In this document: piece after piece, positions 5,607 through 13,443 of the stretch | How positions within the stretch are numbered: position 1 is the stretch's first letter | How the letters are laid out: the number at the start of each line of letters is the position of its first letter | Assembly: GCA_005888755.1 (NCBI GenBank) | Contig: VBBQ01000021.1 | Coordinates: 20,756-36,778, forward strand | Source: Candidatus Bathyarchaeota archaeon | GTDB taxonomy: Archaea; Thermoproteota; Bathyarchaeia; 40CM-2-53-6 | DNA: 16,023 nt | Reading direction: 5' to 3' | The notes under the pieces: model-generated | What the model was told of the DNA's origin: nothing | Database searches by the model: none | The model's input: the letters and a program-made list of their open reading frames with translations, nothing else | Made by a program: the position numbers and the translations under genes

Positions 5607-6065
5607 ATGCGTGTTCGCCTCGTTGGCTACGAGCCTGACCTCGAAAGGGTCTGCGCCGCCGCCATGCGATCATGCTACTCTCCCCATCCCGGCTATGAGC
5701 TCTTCACGCACACGTCACAAGACAAGGTGTTGGATGGAGAGAAAATCTTCGACGCGGAACGAATAGGTGGGCTTTTGAAACGTGCGCTCGAGCTAGGACA
5801 CTATGACATTCTTGAGCATAACAGCATAACGTGGCTGGCTGAGGCTGATGAGAAAGACATCCTATTCCTCATGGAATCTTCCAAGTTCTTTGAGACAAGT
5901 CAGATCGACGAGCAAAGATGGCTCATCACGACAAACCTCCGCGTACTAGTCGAACTAGCCCGCGGCACAAACCATCTACCTTTGACGAAAGAACTTGTTG
6001 GTACTCTGAGTGAGGCCGCTCCTATAATCGCCTCGGCCTTATCGATGCCTAACACAAAGAGTTAG
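5607..6065 (+). CDS. ThyX-like protein lacking the RHR signature
   Basis: A 152-aa protein that opens like flavin-dependent thymidylate synthase (MRVRLVGYEPDLERVCAAAM, then RSCYSPHPGY) and keeps the N-terminal landmark LELGHYDILEHNSITW. This corresponds to the GHxxxxEHxxFTF segment whose first histidine contributes to FAD/dUMP binding in known ThyX. After this it has no RHRX7S motif. Instead it goes to FFETSQIDEQRWLITTNLRV (then LVEL), which resembles the later ThyX helix NARxLxxFxxLR without the following AQWEI. It is therefore a shortened paralogue that alone should not form a full active site. The TAG at 6063-6065 is seven bases before the ATG of the next ThyX gene, implying one transcript. 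An inactive regulatory or structural subunit is the leading guess; a decaying copy is the alternative. Confidence 0.8.
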   Translation: MRVRLVGYEPDLERVCAAAMRSCYSPHPGYELFTHTSQDKVLDGEKIFDAERIGGLLKRALELGHYDILEHNSITWLAEADEKDILFLMESSKFFETSQIDEQRWLITTNLRVLVELARGTNHLPLTKELVGTLSEAAPIIASALSMPNTKS

Positions 6066-6072
6066 CGATTGA

Positions 6073-7872
6073 ATGACAAGTAAAGCGATCCTGTTCAGCT
6101 ACACCAACTACCCCGAACTCAACGCGAACTTGGAAGGGGCTGGGGTGAAGATGAGCAAAGACAGCATGCTACGTCACGGGAGTTTTACGTTCGACCTTCA
6201 AGGTATAAGCAGAGCAGCAAGCCACCAAATAGTCAGACATAGAATAGCATCCTTCTCGCAACAGTGCTACGACCCAGAAACGGAGATACTAACAGTAGAC
6301 GGTTGGAAACACTATCACGAGCTGCGCCATGACCTTGAGGTAGCCACACTTAACCCGATAACGTTCGAGATCGAGTACCAAATTCCAACGTCGTTCTTTC
6401 TCTACCCCTACGAGGGTCCCATGCATCGATTTCAGGCGAAACAGGTAGACTTGTGCGTTACACCCAATCACAAGCTATTCGTAAAAATCTATGGGCGCAC
6501 CCGCTGGGAATTCCTTGAGGCCTCGATAGTCGCCCAGATTGGACACGGGTACATCGAGTTCAAGAAGGATGGATTCTGGTACGGCGAAGAGGACGAGCCG
6601 AGCCTAATCATTCCTGGCGCGACCATCGTGAAGCAATATGCTTCAGGACAATCAGCCTACCAAAGACTGGACATCACTGTTGATTATCACAATTTCCTAG
6701 AATTCCTTGGCTACTTCATATCTGAAGGGTGCGTATGCGAATCGCCTCAGCGAGGCGGGACGAGGCACATTATCGAGATCGCGCAAAAGATTGGAAAGAC
6801 AGCAGAGAATATTGAATCCTGTGTCAAGAATCTGCCTTTCGGTGCTTATCGGTCTATCGACAAGTACGGCTGCATGAGATGGCGTATCGAAGACAAATCA
6901 CTTCTAGAGTTTCTCAAGCCTCTTGGCAAAGCCCACCAGAAGTTCATTCCTCGCTGGGCATTGAATCGAAACCAAAGAGACCTTCAGCTGCTATTCAAGG
7001 CTCTCATTGAAGGCGACGGCTCAGTTGACCAGAGAAGCGGGTGGACACGATACTATACTACGTCTAAGCGTCTAGCTGACGATGTCCAAGAACTCGCGTT
7101 CAAGCTTGGACATGGCGCAAATATTTCCTATACAGAACCGAGACCACCACGCAATCCTCTAGGATGTTACACGGTTAGTATTATCCAAAATAGGAACACT
7201 CCCTTGATCCGTCTTGATCGCACGACTTCAAGCCACCATGAAGTTGTTCAGTATCATGGTATCGTCTGGTGTATGGAGGTCCCGAACCACATTATCTATG
7301 TGAGAAGAAACGGAAAGACTGTGTGGTGTGGAAATAGTCAACGGTACGTGAAAGTCACGCGTAGCTATGGTTACCTTAAGCCGCCTGGGGTTCCGGAAGA
7401 ACTCAGCGTCCCTGTCGAGATTCAGGGACACAAGCTAGAGCTGAACTTTGAGGATGTGATGGACTTGACCCGTCAAGCCGAGGAGGGACTAGTAGCGAAA
7501 GGTATCAAGGCGGAGGACAGCCGATACTTGCGGCCCAACGCTGCAACCACGAACATAGTCATGAGTATGAGCCCACGCCAGCTCATCCATTTTTTCAATC
7601 TCCGCTGCGCCCCTGACGCTCAATGGGAGATCCGAGACCTTGCATGGTCGATGTACGCCGCGGTCCGGCTTGCAGCTCCCCAAGTCTTCGGGCCATTGCC
7701 TGCGGCAGATGAAAGTGACTACATCAAGAAACGGGTCTTAATCGTCGACGATCTAGTTCGAAAGGGCGAAGACGGATTCTCTAAGACCACGCCTGGAGAG
7801 CTCTTCCAGCTGGAGCTTCAACCCATGCTGGAACTCGTCCATCCGGTTGAGGCTTTCGTTCGCCGGTACTAG
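6073..7872 (+). CDS. thyX: Flavin-dependent thymidylate synthase ThyX interrupted by an intein
   Basis: A 599-aa precursor. The N-extein (1-64) carries HGSFTFDLQGISRAASHQIV then RHRIASFSQQ. The intein occupies 65-421. The C-extein (422-599) starts SQRYVKV and holds EDSRYLRPNAATTNIVMSM and LIHFFNLRCAPDAQWEIRDL. Spliced, the product is about 242 residues with a complete RHRX7S signature (R55, H56, R57 and S422). ThyX methylates dUMP to dTMP using FAD, NADPH and methylene-tetrahydrofolate. The N-terminus is odd: only 34 residues precede the HGSFTF strand, where the family usually has 50-75, and the usual GHxxxxEH reads SKDSMLRH, so the conserved histidine is K29. The missing part is present in the preceding ThyX-like gene. 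The start is ATG 6073 because an in-frame TGA (6070-6072) lies directly before it. Confidence 0.92.
   Translation: MTSKAILFSYTNYPELNANLEGAGVKMSKDSMLRHGSFTFDLQGISRAASHQIVRHRIASFSQQCYDPETEILTVDGWKHYHELRHDLEVATLNPITFEIEYQIPTSFFLYPYEGPMHRFQAKQVDLCVTPNHKLFVKIYGRTRWEFLEASIVAQIGHGYIEFKKDGFWYGEEDEPSLIIPGATIVKQYASGQSAYQRLDITVDYHNFLEFLGYFISEGCVCESPQRGGTRHIIEIAQKIGKTAENIESCVKNLPFGAYRSIDKYGCMRWRIEDKSLLEFLKPLGKAHQKFIPRWALNRNQRDLQLLFKALIEGDGSVDQRSGWTRYYTTSKRLADDVQELAFKLGHGANISYTEPRPPRNPLGCYTVSIIQNRNTPLIRLDRTTSSHHEVVQYHGIVWCMEVPNHIIYVRRNGKTVWCGNSQRYVKVTRSYGYLKPPGVPEELSVPVEIQGHKLELNFEDVMDLTRQAEEGLVAKGIKAEDSRYLRPNAATTNIVMSMSPRQLIHFFNLRCAPDAQWEIRDLAWSMYAAVRLAAPQVFGPLPAADESDYIKKRVLIVDDLVRKGEDGFSKTTPGELFQLELQPMLELVHPVEAFVRRY
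6265..7335 (+). mobile_element. ThyX intein with LAGLIDADG homing endonuclease
   Basis: A 357-aa intein in frame within thyX. It begins at C65 (CYDPETEILTVDGW, block A), has the block B motif CVTPNH (T130, H133), and two dodecapeptide motifs, LGYFISEGC (acidic E218) and LFKALIEGDGSVD (D315). It ends with block F/G, CMEVPNHIIYV then NGKTVWCGN, before the +1 serine S422. The endonuclease would cut an intein-less thyX allele to spread by homing, and the splicing blocks remove the intein from the protein. The penultimate residue is Gly rather than the common His; other inteins are known that splice without this His. The insertion lies immediately before the last serine of RHRX7S, a highly conserved target. 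Both endonuclease acidic residues are present, so it may still be active. Confidence 0.92.
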
Positions 7873-8611: not shown

Positions 8612-11600
8612 CTACAGTTCGGAGGAGGCGGATATCATCGGCATGACAGGAAGCTCTTGTCCTGGCTCCACGAGTTGTTCAAACTCTCGTCTTGCCTTGT
8701 CCATCTTTGGATAGATGACTTCTCGGAACCCTGTTACTGCGAATTCGTTCGGCCTGTAAGGGTCGTTGATTACCCTCAACGCTCTGAGTGCCAGATCATA
8801 GTCTGTAGACGCAGTCTTGAGATAGAAGCCAACGACGTCGTCTTTGTACCAGTCTCGGAACGCGCGCTCCTTCTTGTGCCATCCCCAACTATCCAGGATG
8901 GTCCTAGTCCATTTCATGTGCTTGAAGATCCTCATCAACCAGTTGTGAGCAAGCCACTGAGGCAGGTCAAACCGGACCTGTTTGCCGAAGACTTCGAATT
9001 CTGGCCTGTTGATATGTTCGTATGTTATCCTGTCACCGTTCTTATCGTCAACGTTGTACCGGATCTTGTCCCGGTCCAGCTTCTCATCATCAGTCAACAA
9101 GTGTGGAGTGTAGATCTCGTCCTTGATCGCCATTACCTTGTGCAAGTCCAGCATCGCTATGTTAGTCGCGGCGAATCCTTTGTCCGCCCTATCGTTCCTG
9201 AATACCTCTAGGACCCTGTCCACGTATTTCTCGGCGTAGGAAAGGTCTCCCCACATTATGAGGTCGTAGACTCTTCTCGCAATGCCGCGGTTGGTGTCCT
9301 CGTCGAGACCCATCGTGGCTACAGTACTCATTACTAACCGCCTGTATTCGTCTGCGGTCTTCTTTCCTTTCCAGAACATCCAGTAGGAGTGCGAGATCTG
9401 CTTGGCCTTCATGTCAAGAATGGACTGGTAGCTCTCCTTTGCCCCGAATAGCGTGAGTATCCTCTCATCTGCTACGATGTTCTTGAAGTCGAGAAGCTCC
9501 GGCGACACGACCATTTTCCGGCCCAGCCGAAACGCCTCCATATTCCTAGCCCTTTGGCTAGCGGGGACGGTTTCCATTATTGCGTCAACGAGGTTCTGTT
9601 CGCTGACAGGTACGAGGCCCTTCTGGAAGGCAGCGCCGAGAAGAATAATGTTGGTGAAGAGCTTGCTTCCGAAGTAGAGTTCGGAGATCTCGCTGATTCT
9701 TCCGCCGAAGTATTCGTCAGAGTTTGTGTGTCTTCGAATATTCTCTTCCGCGTCTGGAGGATAAGTCATCATCCCGGCGAGCATTGGGATAGTCGGGACC
9801 ACGGTGGTGTTCACCACTGCGGTCGTGTGAACCTGGCTGGCGTATACGAGACTTCTCTCCGCCTCGAGCAGGTCAACCCCCATCAAGAGATCAGCCTTTC
9901 CGTTGGGGACGATGGTTGAGATCTTGGCCATTCCATTCGAGTAGAGAACGTGTGCGGAGACTGCGCCGTTTCTGATTGCGAGTCCTTTCTTGTCGTTGAA
10001 CCGGACGTGGTATCCTTCTTTGGTTCCAGCTCGAGCCAGAACTGATGACATTACTCCTACTCCCATGCCGCCTACGCCGCTGATGAATACCTTCCAGGTA
10101 TCTTTGAATCGGTGTGGAGCAGGCTGTGGAATATTGTCGAGCGGTATGTTCTTGACCCTTGATTTCGGCGGCTTGTTTCTAGTAATGATTACTTTCTCGA
10201 AGGATGGGCAAGCCATGACCTTCGTACAGTACGTGTCGGATACGCAAATCGACTGGTCAATACCAATCTTCTCTCCATAATCTGTGTCGATTATTGTGAG
10301 TCCTGGGCAGCCTGTGTTTTTGGTGCATTCTCGGCAGTTCTCGCAGACTTCCTGTGAGATGTTGACGAATGTTTCTTTCTTGACGAAACCCTGTCTCTCG
10401 ATGATCCTGTTTCTCTCTGATCGCTTTCTCTTGTGAAATGTGATGCCGCATTCTTTGTCGGCAATGATCACTTTTACACCCGGTTTCTCGAACACTTTGT
10501 CCAGTTCTTTCATGTACTTCTCTCTGTTCGACGGGGGCATCTTCTTCACGTAGATCTGTCCCTGGCCCATGGCACGGACGATACTCTCAATATCTTGAGG
10601 GGTTGTCTTGTCGCCCATCAGATTGTGGCCCGTCTCCGGTGTTGGCTGATGGCCTGTCATTGCGGTGTTCTTGTTGTCGAGGATGAGATAGAGTATGTCT
10701 TGTCCTTCTTTGATTGAGTTGGATATGGCGGTCATTCCTCTCCAGAAGAAAGTCGAGTCTCCCATCAGGGCATACTGCTTGTTTGTTACGAACGGATCCA
10801 TTCCGGACCCCGCAGCTCCCCCCAGTGACATCGCCGTTAGGTTGTGCATTTCCCCGAACGGAGGGAGGAACGACATCGAGTAGCATCCGATGTCGCCGTG
10901 TGCGAAGATGTCCTTGTGTTCAGGGGTATCTCTTAGAGAATGAACGGCGCTGAGAGTTTCCCTGTGGGGACAACCTGCGCAAAAGCCTGGAGATCGTGGT
11001 GGGACTAGGAGCCCGTAGGCTTTGATTTCTGCAAGAAGATCAAGCTCGTTGTGAATCTTCTTCTGGTCTATATTGGCTGCGGGATCGCCAAGTTCCAAGA
11101 GCAAGTTTCCAACTTTCTCAATCAGGTTTGACGGAGTGAGGCCGCTCTCTTCAGGGAATCCATCGCCCTGTGGAAAGAACTTCCCCCAGACTTTCGGCAT
11201 GCTGGAGAGCCTTCCCTCCTGCACCAAGTCGTCCAGGATGGTTTTGACCTGGTTCTCTATTGCAGGGCTTTTCTCTTCAACAACAATAATGTTCTCTACT
11301 TTCTTGGATAACTCGCCGACGATTTCTGGCTCGAGAGGATATGTTACTGCGGGTTTCAGGATTGGGAACTGTTCGTCTAGTCCGAGCTCCCAGAGAGCCT
11401 GTTCCAGATAGCTGTAGGATATGCCTGCTGCGATGAAGCCGATCCTATGCTTTCGGCCATCATCGTACAGTATCTTGTCGAGCTTATGATCTCTAACGTA
11501 TTCGTGGACTCTGGGGAATCTTTCTCTGATGATTTCCTTCTCTAGGTCCCATGTGTTTGGTGGGATGCTGACTCTTCGTTTGATGTCAATTTTCGAGATA

Positions 11601-12229
11601 TCGAGGGTAATTGGATTCTTGAATGTGATCTCTGAGGGCTGGTTTTCTGAAAGAACAACGCTACCTCCGCCTTCGGCAAGATAGGTTGTAATCAGATAGC
11701 CCACGACAAGATTGGAATATTGGGAGAGTCTGAGTCCTTCCCCGATCCAGTCCTTGACCTCTTGTGGAGTGCTGGGCTCGATGATAGCCATCTTGAGATG
11801 CTCCATAAGCTGGCGGCTATCACCTGCAACCTGAGTGCTGGAAGCATGCGGGTCGTCTCCGCAGACGACGAGTGCTCCACCTCTCTTCCCGCTCAAGCCG
11901 AGTTTGTCAGCGTAATTGATGATGTTGATCGGGTCCGCAGCGACATTGAGGCCAACGCTCTTCATCACAGCAACAGCATTGACGCCGACATCCAAGGCGC
12001 CGTTAAGTGCGGCTGCGCCTTGGGACTCGTCGTTCGTCATTTCTGCCCAGAGTCCGCATTCTCTGAGAATCTCGGCGTTCTCTTCTAGAATCGTGAAAAC
12101 TTCTGCGACAGGCGAGCCTGGGTAGCCGGCCATTAAGCCGACTTTGCTCTCAAGCGCTCCCTTTACTATCAGCTCGTTTCCGTTGAAAGCGTTGATACCG
12201 GACCCTTGGACAAAACGTTTGTCCGACAT
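8612..12229 (-). CDS. iorA: Fused indolepyruvate:ferredoxin oxidoreductase (alpha-beta fusion)
   Basis: A 1205-aa multidomain enzyme that oxidatively decarboxylates aryl-2-oxoacids to acyl-CoA, passing electrons to ferredoxin. Domains in order: pyrimidine-binding domain about 1-230 (MAGYPGSPVAEVF, MTNDESQGAAALNGAL); transketolase-C-like linker about 260-380; TPP-binding domain about 415-600 (FCAGCPHRE at 416-423, HGDIGCYSM, MGDSTFFWRGM with GDS at 490-492, LDNKNTAMTG). A ferredoxin-like part follows at about 625-680, with Cys 629, 632, 635 and 641, then 662, 668 and 674. Next is the beta-type catalytic domain about 714-920 (FISGVGGMGVGVMSSVLARA). A C-terminal domain of about 280 residues ends near FREVIYPKMDKARREFE and resembles the extra domain of bacterial long single-chain enzymes. 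Most archaeal enzymes are two-subunit. The second iron-sulfur cluster has only three clear cysteines in an unusual spacing. Start ATG 12229. Confidence 0.92.
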   Translation of the reverse strand: MSDKRFVQGSGINAFNGNELIVKGALESKVGLMAGYPGSPVAEVFTILEENAEILRECGLWAEMTNDESQGAAALNGALDVGVNAVAVMKSVGLNVAADPINIINYADKLGLSGKRGGALVVCGDDPHASSTQVAGDSRQLMEHLKMAIIEPSTPQEVKDWIGEGLRLSQYSNLVVGYLITTYLAEGGGSVVLSENQPSEITFKNPITLDISKIDIKRRVSIPPNTWDLEKEIIRERFPRVHEYVRDHKLDKILYDDGRKHRIGFIAAGISYSYLEQALWELGLDEQFPILKPAVTYPLEPEIVGELSKKVENIIVVEEKSPAIENQVKTILDDLVQEGRLSSMPKVWGKFFPQGDGFPEESGLTPSNLIEKVGNLLLELGDPAANIDQKKIHNELDLLAEIKAYGLLVPPRSPGFCAGCPHRETLSAVHSLRDTPEHKDIFAHGDIGCYSMSFLPPFGEMHNLTAMSLGGAAGSGMDPFVTNKQYALMGDSTFFWRGMTAISNSIKEGQDILYLILDNKNTAMTGHQPTPETGHNLMGDKTTPQDIESIVRAMGQGQIYVKKMPPSNREKYMKELDKVFEKPGVKVIIADKECGITFHKRKRSERNRIIERQGFVKKETFVNISQEVCENCRECTKNTGCPGLTIIDTDYGEKIGIDQSICVSDTYCTKVMACPSFEKVIITRNKPPKSRVKNIPLDNIPQPAPHRFKDTWKVFISGVGGMGVGVMSSVLARAGTKEGYHVRFNDKKGLAIRNGAVSAHVLYSNGMAKISTIVPNGKADLLMGVDLLEAERSLVYASQVHTTAVVNTTVVPTIPMLAGMMTYPPDAEENIRRHTNSDEYFGGRISEISELYFGSKLFTNIILLGAAFQKGLVPVSEQNLVDAIMETVPASQRARNMEAFRLGRKMVVSPELLDFKNIVADERILTLFGAKESYQSILDMKAKQISHSYWMFWKGKKTADEYRRLVMSTVATMGLDEDTNRGIARRVYDLIMWGDLSYAEKYVDRVLEVFRNDRADKGFAATNIAMLDLHKVMAIKDEIYTPHLLTDDEKLDRDKIRYNVDDKNGDRITYEHINRPEFEVFGKQVRFDLPQWLAHNWLMRIFKHMKWTRTILDSWGWHKKERAFRDWYKDDVVGFYLKTASTDYDLALRALRVINDPYRPNEFAVTGFREVIYPKMDKARREFEQLVEPGQELPVMPMISASSEL

Positions 12230-12432: not shown

Positions 12433-13443
12433 ATGAAAAACCCTACAAATACCCTATCCCTGACTGAGCAATCGCCTGGAAAAGGATATGAGTTGAGAGC
12501 GCTCCTTCTTCTCGCCATCCTTCTTGTCTCAATAATATACTTCGACTCTCCACTCGACTCTCGTGCTTCCTCTGGAGCGGTTATTCCAACCGGGGGGGGC
12601 ACATGGGCAACCTCTACCATTACTATTGTAATTTACCCGCAGCCGAACGCGCTTTGGTTCAAACCCTCATACTCATCGGACGTGGCACGTGCCATTTCTC
12701 GCTGGACGGAATCCATCATAGCTTACACCGATGCTCATGGGTCAAGCTACCTCCGCAAGCTTGGCTTCCTTGCCTACATTTCCGGGGTTAACCAATCGAT
12801 TCCTGCGAATCCAGACATTCAAATCGAGTTCATTCAGACGTTCCTGGGAGCTCTTTACCCTCTAGGTCTAGGAGTAACAATAATACCTCAGCCAGTCAAC
12901 GGAATCTTTTCAGGCCAGACCACGACACGGTTGGCAGCCTACGATCCAACAAACACGACGCAGCTAACCGATAGCGACATGATCAATATCGCTAGCCATG
13001 AGTTTGGTCATGCCTTAGGTCTCGATCACGCAACCGTCTCGGCAACGGACGATGGCACATTCGAATTGATGTTCATGTCGTATGGACAGGCAGTTGGCAA
13101 TTCTGCAAATTCGCTGGAGGCGCCTTCAACCCTGGATATGTTCGCGCTATCTTATGTCTACGATTGGCTGGCGAATTATTCTATGCCCAGCGGGGGACAT
13201 CCCAGGACGCTTCTTTCACTGCCACCCGGAGTCGCCTATTCGTCTGTGTATCCCTATGCGGAGCAGATTCAGATGCTGCAGAACTCTGTTAGCCAGTTGC
13301 GACTTGAGATCCTGATCGTGGCAGTTGTTGCGGGTCTTCTTCTCGCACTGGTCTTGGTGTTTGGCATTCTCTTGTCGCGGAGGAAGCCGGCGCCACCGGT
13401 GCCCTATTCTTGGGGACCGGTTCCGACTACTCCAACAGCATAG
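12433..13443 (+). CDS. Membrane-anchored metzincin-like zinc metalloprotease
   Basis: A 336-aa protein with the extended zinc motif HEFGHALGLDH (H189, E190, H193 and H199) and a Met-turn candidate in ELMFMSYG (M213/M215), the pattern of metzincins such as matrixins (M10). An N-terminal hydrophobic segment (about residues 22-37) is a signal anchor or signal peptide. A second membrane helix at about 292-314 is followed by RRK, then a short proline-rich cytoplasmic tail, so the catalytic domain should sit outside the cell. The region before the zinc motif (IAAYDPTN-like stretch, TDSDMINIASHE) fits a matrixin-type fold. Substrates are unknown; processing of surface or extracellular proteins is likely. 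The start is ATG 12433. It is divergent from the oxidoreductase gene. Confidence 0.88.
   Translation: MKNPTNTLSLTEQSPGKGYELRALLLLAILLVSIIYFDSPLDSRASSGAVIPTGGGTWATSTITIVIYPQPNALWFKPSYSSDVARAISRWTESIIAYTDAHGSSYLRKLGFLAYISGVNQSIPANPDIQIEFIQTFLGALYPLGLGVTIIPQPVNGIFSGQTTTRLAAYDPTNTTQLTDSDMINIASHEFGHALGLDHATVSATDDGTFELMFMSYGQAVGNSANSLEAPSTLDMFALSYVYDWLANYSMPSGGHPRTLLSLPPGVAYSSVYPYAEQIQMLQNSVSQLRLEILIVAVVAGLLLALVLVFGILLSRRKPAPPVPYSWGPVPTTPTA

Follow-up and report, generated by a model that had tools for sequence, protein, structure and literature searches.

A pair of adjacent ThyX homologues in Bathyarchaeia with complementary active sites: a probable divided flavin-dependent thymidylate synthase

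Two neighbouring plus-strand genes of a Bathyarchaeia genome, here termed A and B, both encode homologues of the flavin-dependent thymidylate synthase ThyX and show complementary losses, and we conclude that the pair is likely a divided flavin-dependent thymidylate synthase, most probably acting as an obligate A2B2 complex with two complete active sites. Homology of both proteins to ThyX, the predicted fold of A, the residue pattern, its conservation, selection on the genes, their order and, in most carriers, the lack of any other detected synthase are direct results of the analysis. The pair was identified in a stretch of 16,023 nucleotides (the window), which belongs to contig C18 of a Bathyarchaeia metagenome-assembled genome (MAG) of 2.0 Mb that is 95% complete (G000). 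A sequence-only reading of this DNA had placed the two open reading frames with 7 bases separating the A stop codon from the start of B, all of which we could confirm. In window coordinates the features of the locus are:

5607-6065, plus strand: ThyX subunit A, 152 aa, ThyX fold without the RHR motif and active-site loop
5799-5801, plus strand: His65 of A, equivalent to the conserved H53 of ThyX (GH...EH segment)
5814-5816, plus strand: Glu70 of A, equivalent to E58 of ThyX
5934-5942, plus strand: Asn110-Leu-Arg112 of A, equivalent by alignment to N163/R165 of ThyX on the FAD side
6073-7872, plus strand: ThyX subunit B precursor, 599 aa with its intein, starting 7 bases past the A stop codon
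6073-6264, plus strand: N-extein of B, 64 aa, with beta1, a shortened N-terminus, K29/R34 and RHRIASFSQQ
6235-6243, plus strand: RHR motif of B
6265-7335, plus strand: LAGLIDADG intein, 357 aa, residues 65-421 of B, inside RHRX7S and before the catalytic Ser
7336-7872, plus strand: C-extein of B, 178 aa, with the SQRY loop, EDSR (R147), MSPR, NLR (R174) and AQWE

Elsewhere in the window, positions 8612-12229 (minus strand) encode a 1205-aa 2-oxoacid:ferredoxin oxidoreductase whose TPP, POR and DUF6537 domains are fused into a single chain, and positions 12433-13443 (plus strand) encode a putative membrane-anchored zinc protease, recognized from its translation alone by a HEFGHALGLDH motif and a C-terminal transmembrane segment.

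Protein A had been described as having the N-terminal opening of ThyX and a GHxxxxEHxxxTW segment, with neither RHRX7S nor AQWEI. The translation bears this out, with GHYDILEHNSITW and GHYDILEH present and RHR and AQWE missing; A is not only N-terminal, however, since it also has a C-terminal ThyX part consisting of the strand WLITTNLR and helices. It thereby retains both the H53/E58 helix and the N163/R165 strand-helix (Thermotoga maritima numbering, used throughout). Positions 1-64 of the Pfam Thy1 domain were matched by A with an E-value of 3.4e-7, and its score against PF02511 was above the cut-off (30.7 bits vs 24.8), while its score against the NCBIfam equivalog TIGR02170 was below it (23.4 vs 87.9). 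An AlphaFold2 model of window A built from 29 sequences (pLDDT 88, pTM 0.81) retrieved ThyX first in Foldseek (E 1e-4) and superimposed on ThyX structures with Z-scores of 13-14 and an rmsd of 2.1-2.5 over 120-131 residues, whereas the best non-ThyX match reached a Z-score of 3.9. About 128 residues aligned with T. maritima ThyX, spanning its positions 9-209 with the central lid deleted. As judged from its predicted structure, A is a ThyX fold minus its middle. The top matches of a model of an intein-free B orthologue (L070) were likewise all ThyX (Z 10-14, next match 4.0); confidence in that model was moderate, with a pLDDT of 63.5 and values under 50 in the active-site loop. Thus, the predicted structures of A and of the B orthologue both meet the criterion of a ThyX fold. 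Comparing the alignments of A and B as profiles gave no useful match, which is expected because the two proteins keep different parts.

Protein B had been read as a ThyX with the motifs RHRX7S, EDSRYLRPNA and LRCAPDAQWEI. The motifs stand, but that reading overlooked that residues 65-421 of the 599 aa are an intein. The inserted segment has the expected features, namely Cys at position 1, a TxxH block (TPNH), two LAGLIDADG-like endonuclease motifs (Pfam LAGLIDADG_3, E 3.9e-12), a terminal Asn (N357) and Ser at +1, and so meets the criteria for an intein; its penultimate residue is Gly (CGN|S) where His is usual. The insertion point lies between X7 and S of RHRX7S, so that the Ser+1 of the splice junction is the equivalent of the catalytic S88. 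In the unspliced frame X7 is followed by Cys, and RHRX7S of window B is therefore present only once the intein is removed; in this genome, B would depend on protein splicing. Mature B has 242 aa, similar to orthologues without an intein, of which the closest have open frames of 243-262 aa, and meets the RHRX7S criterion, which A does not. B matched Thy1 in two pieces (46-85 and 85-191, E 3.3e-39) and met both cut-offs, with 135.1 bits against PF02511 (24.8) and 110 against TIGR02170 (87.9). B carries an intein in the window genome and in G005, G013 and G015 but not in most close relatives, a sparse distribution from which we infer that the B intein has probably been mobile recently.

The sequence-only reading had proposed a search of archaeal genomes for the same two genes side by side. 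Strong matches to an A profile (E at most about 1e-36) were found in 46 of 256 Bathyarchaeia genomes, almost all of them MAGs, in two distant groups: the window family f1 (soil MAGs, e.g. BA_*, UBA185) and f10/f12/f14. A third lineage, f71, belongs to another class of the same phylum; here the pair was checked in G534 and G597, and A was present in G604 and G610. A ThyX-B match was found in 45 of the 46 A-bearing Bathyarchaeia genomes; A of G008 is cut by a contig end. A preceded B in every pair inspected, at a spacing of -25 to +8 bases, most commonly with a 4-base overlap of stop and start (29 pairs). Within the window clade the median dN/dS was 0.060 for A and 0.048 for B, and although these ratios are rough owing to high dS, purifying selection on both genes is clear. 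Two adjoining partial matches to one family could also come from one ordinary ThyX gene broken in two by an assembly error, a frameshift or pseudogenization, an explanation that we regard as practically excluded: dozens of independent genomes share the pattern, at a dN/dS of about 0.05, which refutes a pseudogene or broken assembly, and a ThyX C-terminal part is present in A as well as the first, N-terminal strand in B, so that the two overlap in ThyX coordinates, which rules out simple gene fission.

No full-length ThyX was found in any of the 46 Bathyarchaeia genomes with A, and ThyA was not found in 39 of them; the seven carriers with ThyA were G060, G233, G234, G236, G239, G246 and G250. 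The window genome had neither ThyA nor a match to Pfam thymidine kinase (TK). A search of IMG/VR for a viral origin of A gave no match with the strict peptide patterns used. A scan of genome contigs returned only Bathyarchaeota-type loci and missed f71, which makes absence elsewhere weak evidence, and sampling beyond this phylum was weak. The occurrence of ThyA in seven pair-bearing genomes, together with the existence of ThyX paralogues with a shifted substrate such as PolB (PMC5954106), would fit a neofunctionalized complex that methylates another substrate (UMP, as in PolB, or nucleic acid), with dTMP supplied by salvage or another route. We consider this very unlikely, as the dUMP-contacting residues are fully conserved, no further thymidylate synthase was found in 39 of the 46 carriers, the window genome lacks a Pfam TK match and no biosynthetic cluster surrounds the pair in the window.

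Individual genomes held other arrangements. G014, which belongs to the same genus as the window and is 95% complete, had no part of ThyX and no ThyA; nearly all its relatives have the pair. G019, from the window's family, had a single divergent full-length ThyX (L040:1728-2510, minus strand) and no pair, which suggests replacement of the pair. On a 5 kb contig, G006 carried a second, divergent A+B of the f71 type (G006:C33; L137:3190-4183) besides its normal pair, for which contamination and lateral transfer are both possible explanations. A second B-like copy in G249 (G249:C526:2283-2834) has two internal stops and is apparently a decaying duplicate. Finally, in other Bathyarchaeia families, G052 encoded a 427-aa protein (open frame 445 aa; L034:2601-3884, minus strand) with two degenerate ThyX-like halves in one chain, and similar matches occurred in G062, G063 and G218; this protein is possibly a fused counterpart of a double ThyX.

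We surveyed the active-site residues in 34 pairs, with 34 full-length ThyX proteins for comparison. In B, R70 (the Arg of GISR), Q75, R78, H79, R80, S88, R90, R147 and R174 were kept in all 34 pairs, whereas H53 and E58 were kept in none, N163 in 4 and R165 in 22; in window B, the MSPR of the C-extein has Ser in place of N163. The shortened N-terminus that had been noted for B was confirmed, with the folate-loop segment lost along with H53 and E58 in every pair, and K29 and R34 of window B indeed occupy the places of these two residues. In A, E58 and R165 were kept in 34 pairs, N163 in 33 and H53 in 31. No A had RHR at its ThyX place, and S88 and R90 were likewise absent from every A; by alignment, the RHR strings of three f14 A proteins lie in another segment. 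The full-length proteins kept all these residues with one or two exceptions. Thus, the complementary pattern was present in 34 of 34 pairs, a recurrence that makes the losses more than chance. Adjacent genes with complementary active-site residues fulfil the criterion that we propose for a divided ThyX, and the criterion of all active-site residues on one type of chain, as in a homotetramer, is not met.

In the three f71-type A proteins of the survey (L137, L142, L148) H53 was lost, and their B partners had Phe for Y91. In reduced T. maritima ThyX a hydrogen bond joins H53 and Y91 (PMC11940539), and a tie between the two changes is suggestive only.

Since every dUMP-side residue is on B, B alone could be the synthase by forming a homotetramer whose FAD/folate pocket is relaxed, and A a non-catalytic protein that stabilizes, assembles or regulates it; the f71 pairs, in which A also lacks H53, indicate that this residue is dispensable at least there. 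We nevertheless find this improbable, because the very set kept by A is missing from B (the folate-loop segment together with H53 and E58 in 34 of 34 pairs, N163 in 30 of 34), a B match accompanies A in 45 of 46 genomes and no genome combines A with a full-length ThyX. No B with a full N-terminus and H53 was found adjoining A among the relatives. Such a relative, or a model in which B forms a complete site by itself, had been named beforehand as refuting a divided enzyme, and neither turned up.

The division of residues between A and B can be compared with published subunit contributions. In site 1 of Mycobacterium tuberculosis ThyX, subunit A supplies RHR and R199, subunit B supplies S71 and R190, and subunit C supplies R87, the backbone of Q103, S105, R107 and Y108 (PMC6514825). 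By alignment these three sets correspond in T. maritima to R78-H79-R80 and R174, to residue 55 and R165, and to R70, S88, R90 and Y91, respectively. Protein A keeps the subunit-B set and its neighbours H53, E58 and N163, and protein B keeps the other two sets. The A/B split agrees with the subunit partition of M. tuberculosis ThyX.

In the divided enzyme that we propose, both proteins derive from ThyX. A lost the RHR function and some 70-80 residues of the central loop and lid. Missing from B are the N-terminal segment that holds the folate loop, H53 and E58, and in most cases N163 as well. The mature enzyme would most likely be an A2B2 heterotetramer on the 222 plan of ThyX, in which two B chains, opposed across one dyad, create two dUMP pockets, each composed of RHR and R174 of one B and R70/S88/R90/Y91 of the other. 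One A would supply the FAD/folate side of each site through H53, residue 55, E58, N163 and R165; a common chain for H53, E58 and residue 55 is inferred from their closeness in one helix. With B, A, B and A at the subunit places A, B, C and D, two sites would be complete and the remaining two, without RHR and loop, would be dead. The A-B complex, its stoichiometry and the conversion of dUMP to dTMP are all inferences.

The suggestion of the sequence-only reading that one active site is completed by two different subunits thus has strong, if indirect, support from conservation in three lineages, the lack of a full-length ThyX alongside, selection on both genes, the tight A-B order, the ThyX fold of A and losses that match the published subunit contributions. 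Some observations run counter to it: H53 does not seem to be absolutely required in f71, R165 is kept in about two thirds of B proteins, ThyA occurs in 7 of 46 carriers, and G014 has neither ThyX nor ThyA.

We also analyzed the origin of the pair. In a maximum-likelihood tree, B of the window clade grouped with full-length ThyX of f81/f85/f86/G025 and f14 B with other ThyX, and as a result of this placement a single clade of all B was rejected (p-AU 0.0003). Furthermore, the N-terminus of window-clade A was 59% identical to f85 full-length ThyX, with which it shares an insertion, and 31% identical to an f14 A. These results speak for a division that happened independently in the window clade and in the other Bathyarchaeia and f71 lineages, a history compatible with a divided enzyme that we consider possible without favouring it. 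Against it, the C-terminal halves of A from the three lineages matched one another (hhalign E 4e-20, 2e-8 and 1e-10) and full-length ThyX only marginally (E 0.01-0.08), a mutual closeness that favours a single origin of A. Such an origin was not rejected (p 0.385), although the A phylogeny, with 70 N-terminal columns, was too short to decide. One division followed by re-fusion in f81/f85/f86/G025 was not rejected either, and it explains the B data no worse than the free tree does (p 0.45). We therefore raise, as no more than a tentative and rather doubtful scenario, that an obligate two-subunit ThyX had a single origin in Thermoproteota, where duplication and complementary degeneration split the site between a subunit for the FAD/folate side and one for the dUMP side, and that recombination of the two tandem genes restored one full-length ThyX in the ancestor of f81/f85/f86/G025; several independent divisions, combined with convergence or recombination, are also still possible. 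If true, re-fusion would mean that the division of an essential enzyme is reversible, and the single-chain relatives provide a test case for its undoing.

Our search of an open-access library, a scope that leaves out most subscription papers and preprints, turned up no account of a divided or heteromeric ThyX. Work on ThyX has so far dealt with a homotetramer in which three identical chains share a site, and its division into two chains appears to be a natural dissection of which subunit contributes which residue and of why not all four sites are needed. In many members of the Bathyarchaeia, which are abundant and uncultured, no thymidylate synthase other than the pair was found, and annotation pipelines are likely to label A as a fragment or a protein of unknown function. 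Complementary degeneration of paralogous subunits follows a logic shared with other catalytic heteromers derived from duplicated homomers, such as Tad2/Tad3, in unrelated enzyme families.

Among single-chain relatives, the atypical ThyX of Corynebacterium glutamicum (3ge9/3fnn) shares the fold and is a structural match to both A and B, but it has the whole Thy1 domain in one chain and, according to its depositors, is not required for thymidylate biosynthesis. PolB, a UMP/dUMP methylase (4p5a/4p5b), also has the ThyX fold but is a single-chain paralogue with a changed substrate. Inteins within ThyX proteins are likewise present in Trichodesmium Ter ThyX (PMC3620165) and mycobacteriophage TdS (PMC5050341); unlike these, the window intein is hosted by the B subunit of a divided ThyX. 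With ThyX itself (PF02511, TIGR02170; T. maritima TM0449, M. tuberculosis), A and B have the fold in common, B the same dUMP-binding and RHRX7S residues and A the same FAD-side residues. ThyX as known so far is built from four copies of one full-length chain, whereas here the residue set is spread over two genes, neither of which is complete. Altogether, the divided ThyX keeps the fold and, jointly, the residue set of ThyX and departs from it in not being a single-chain homotetramer.
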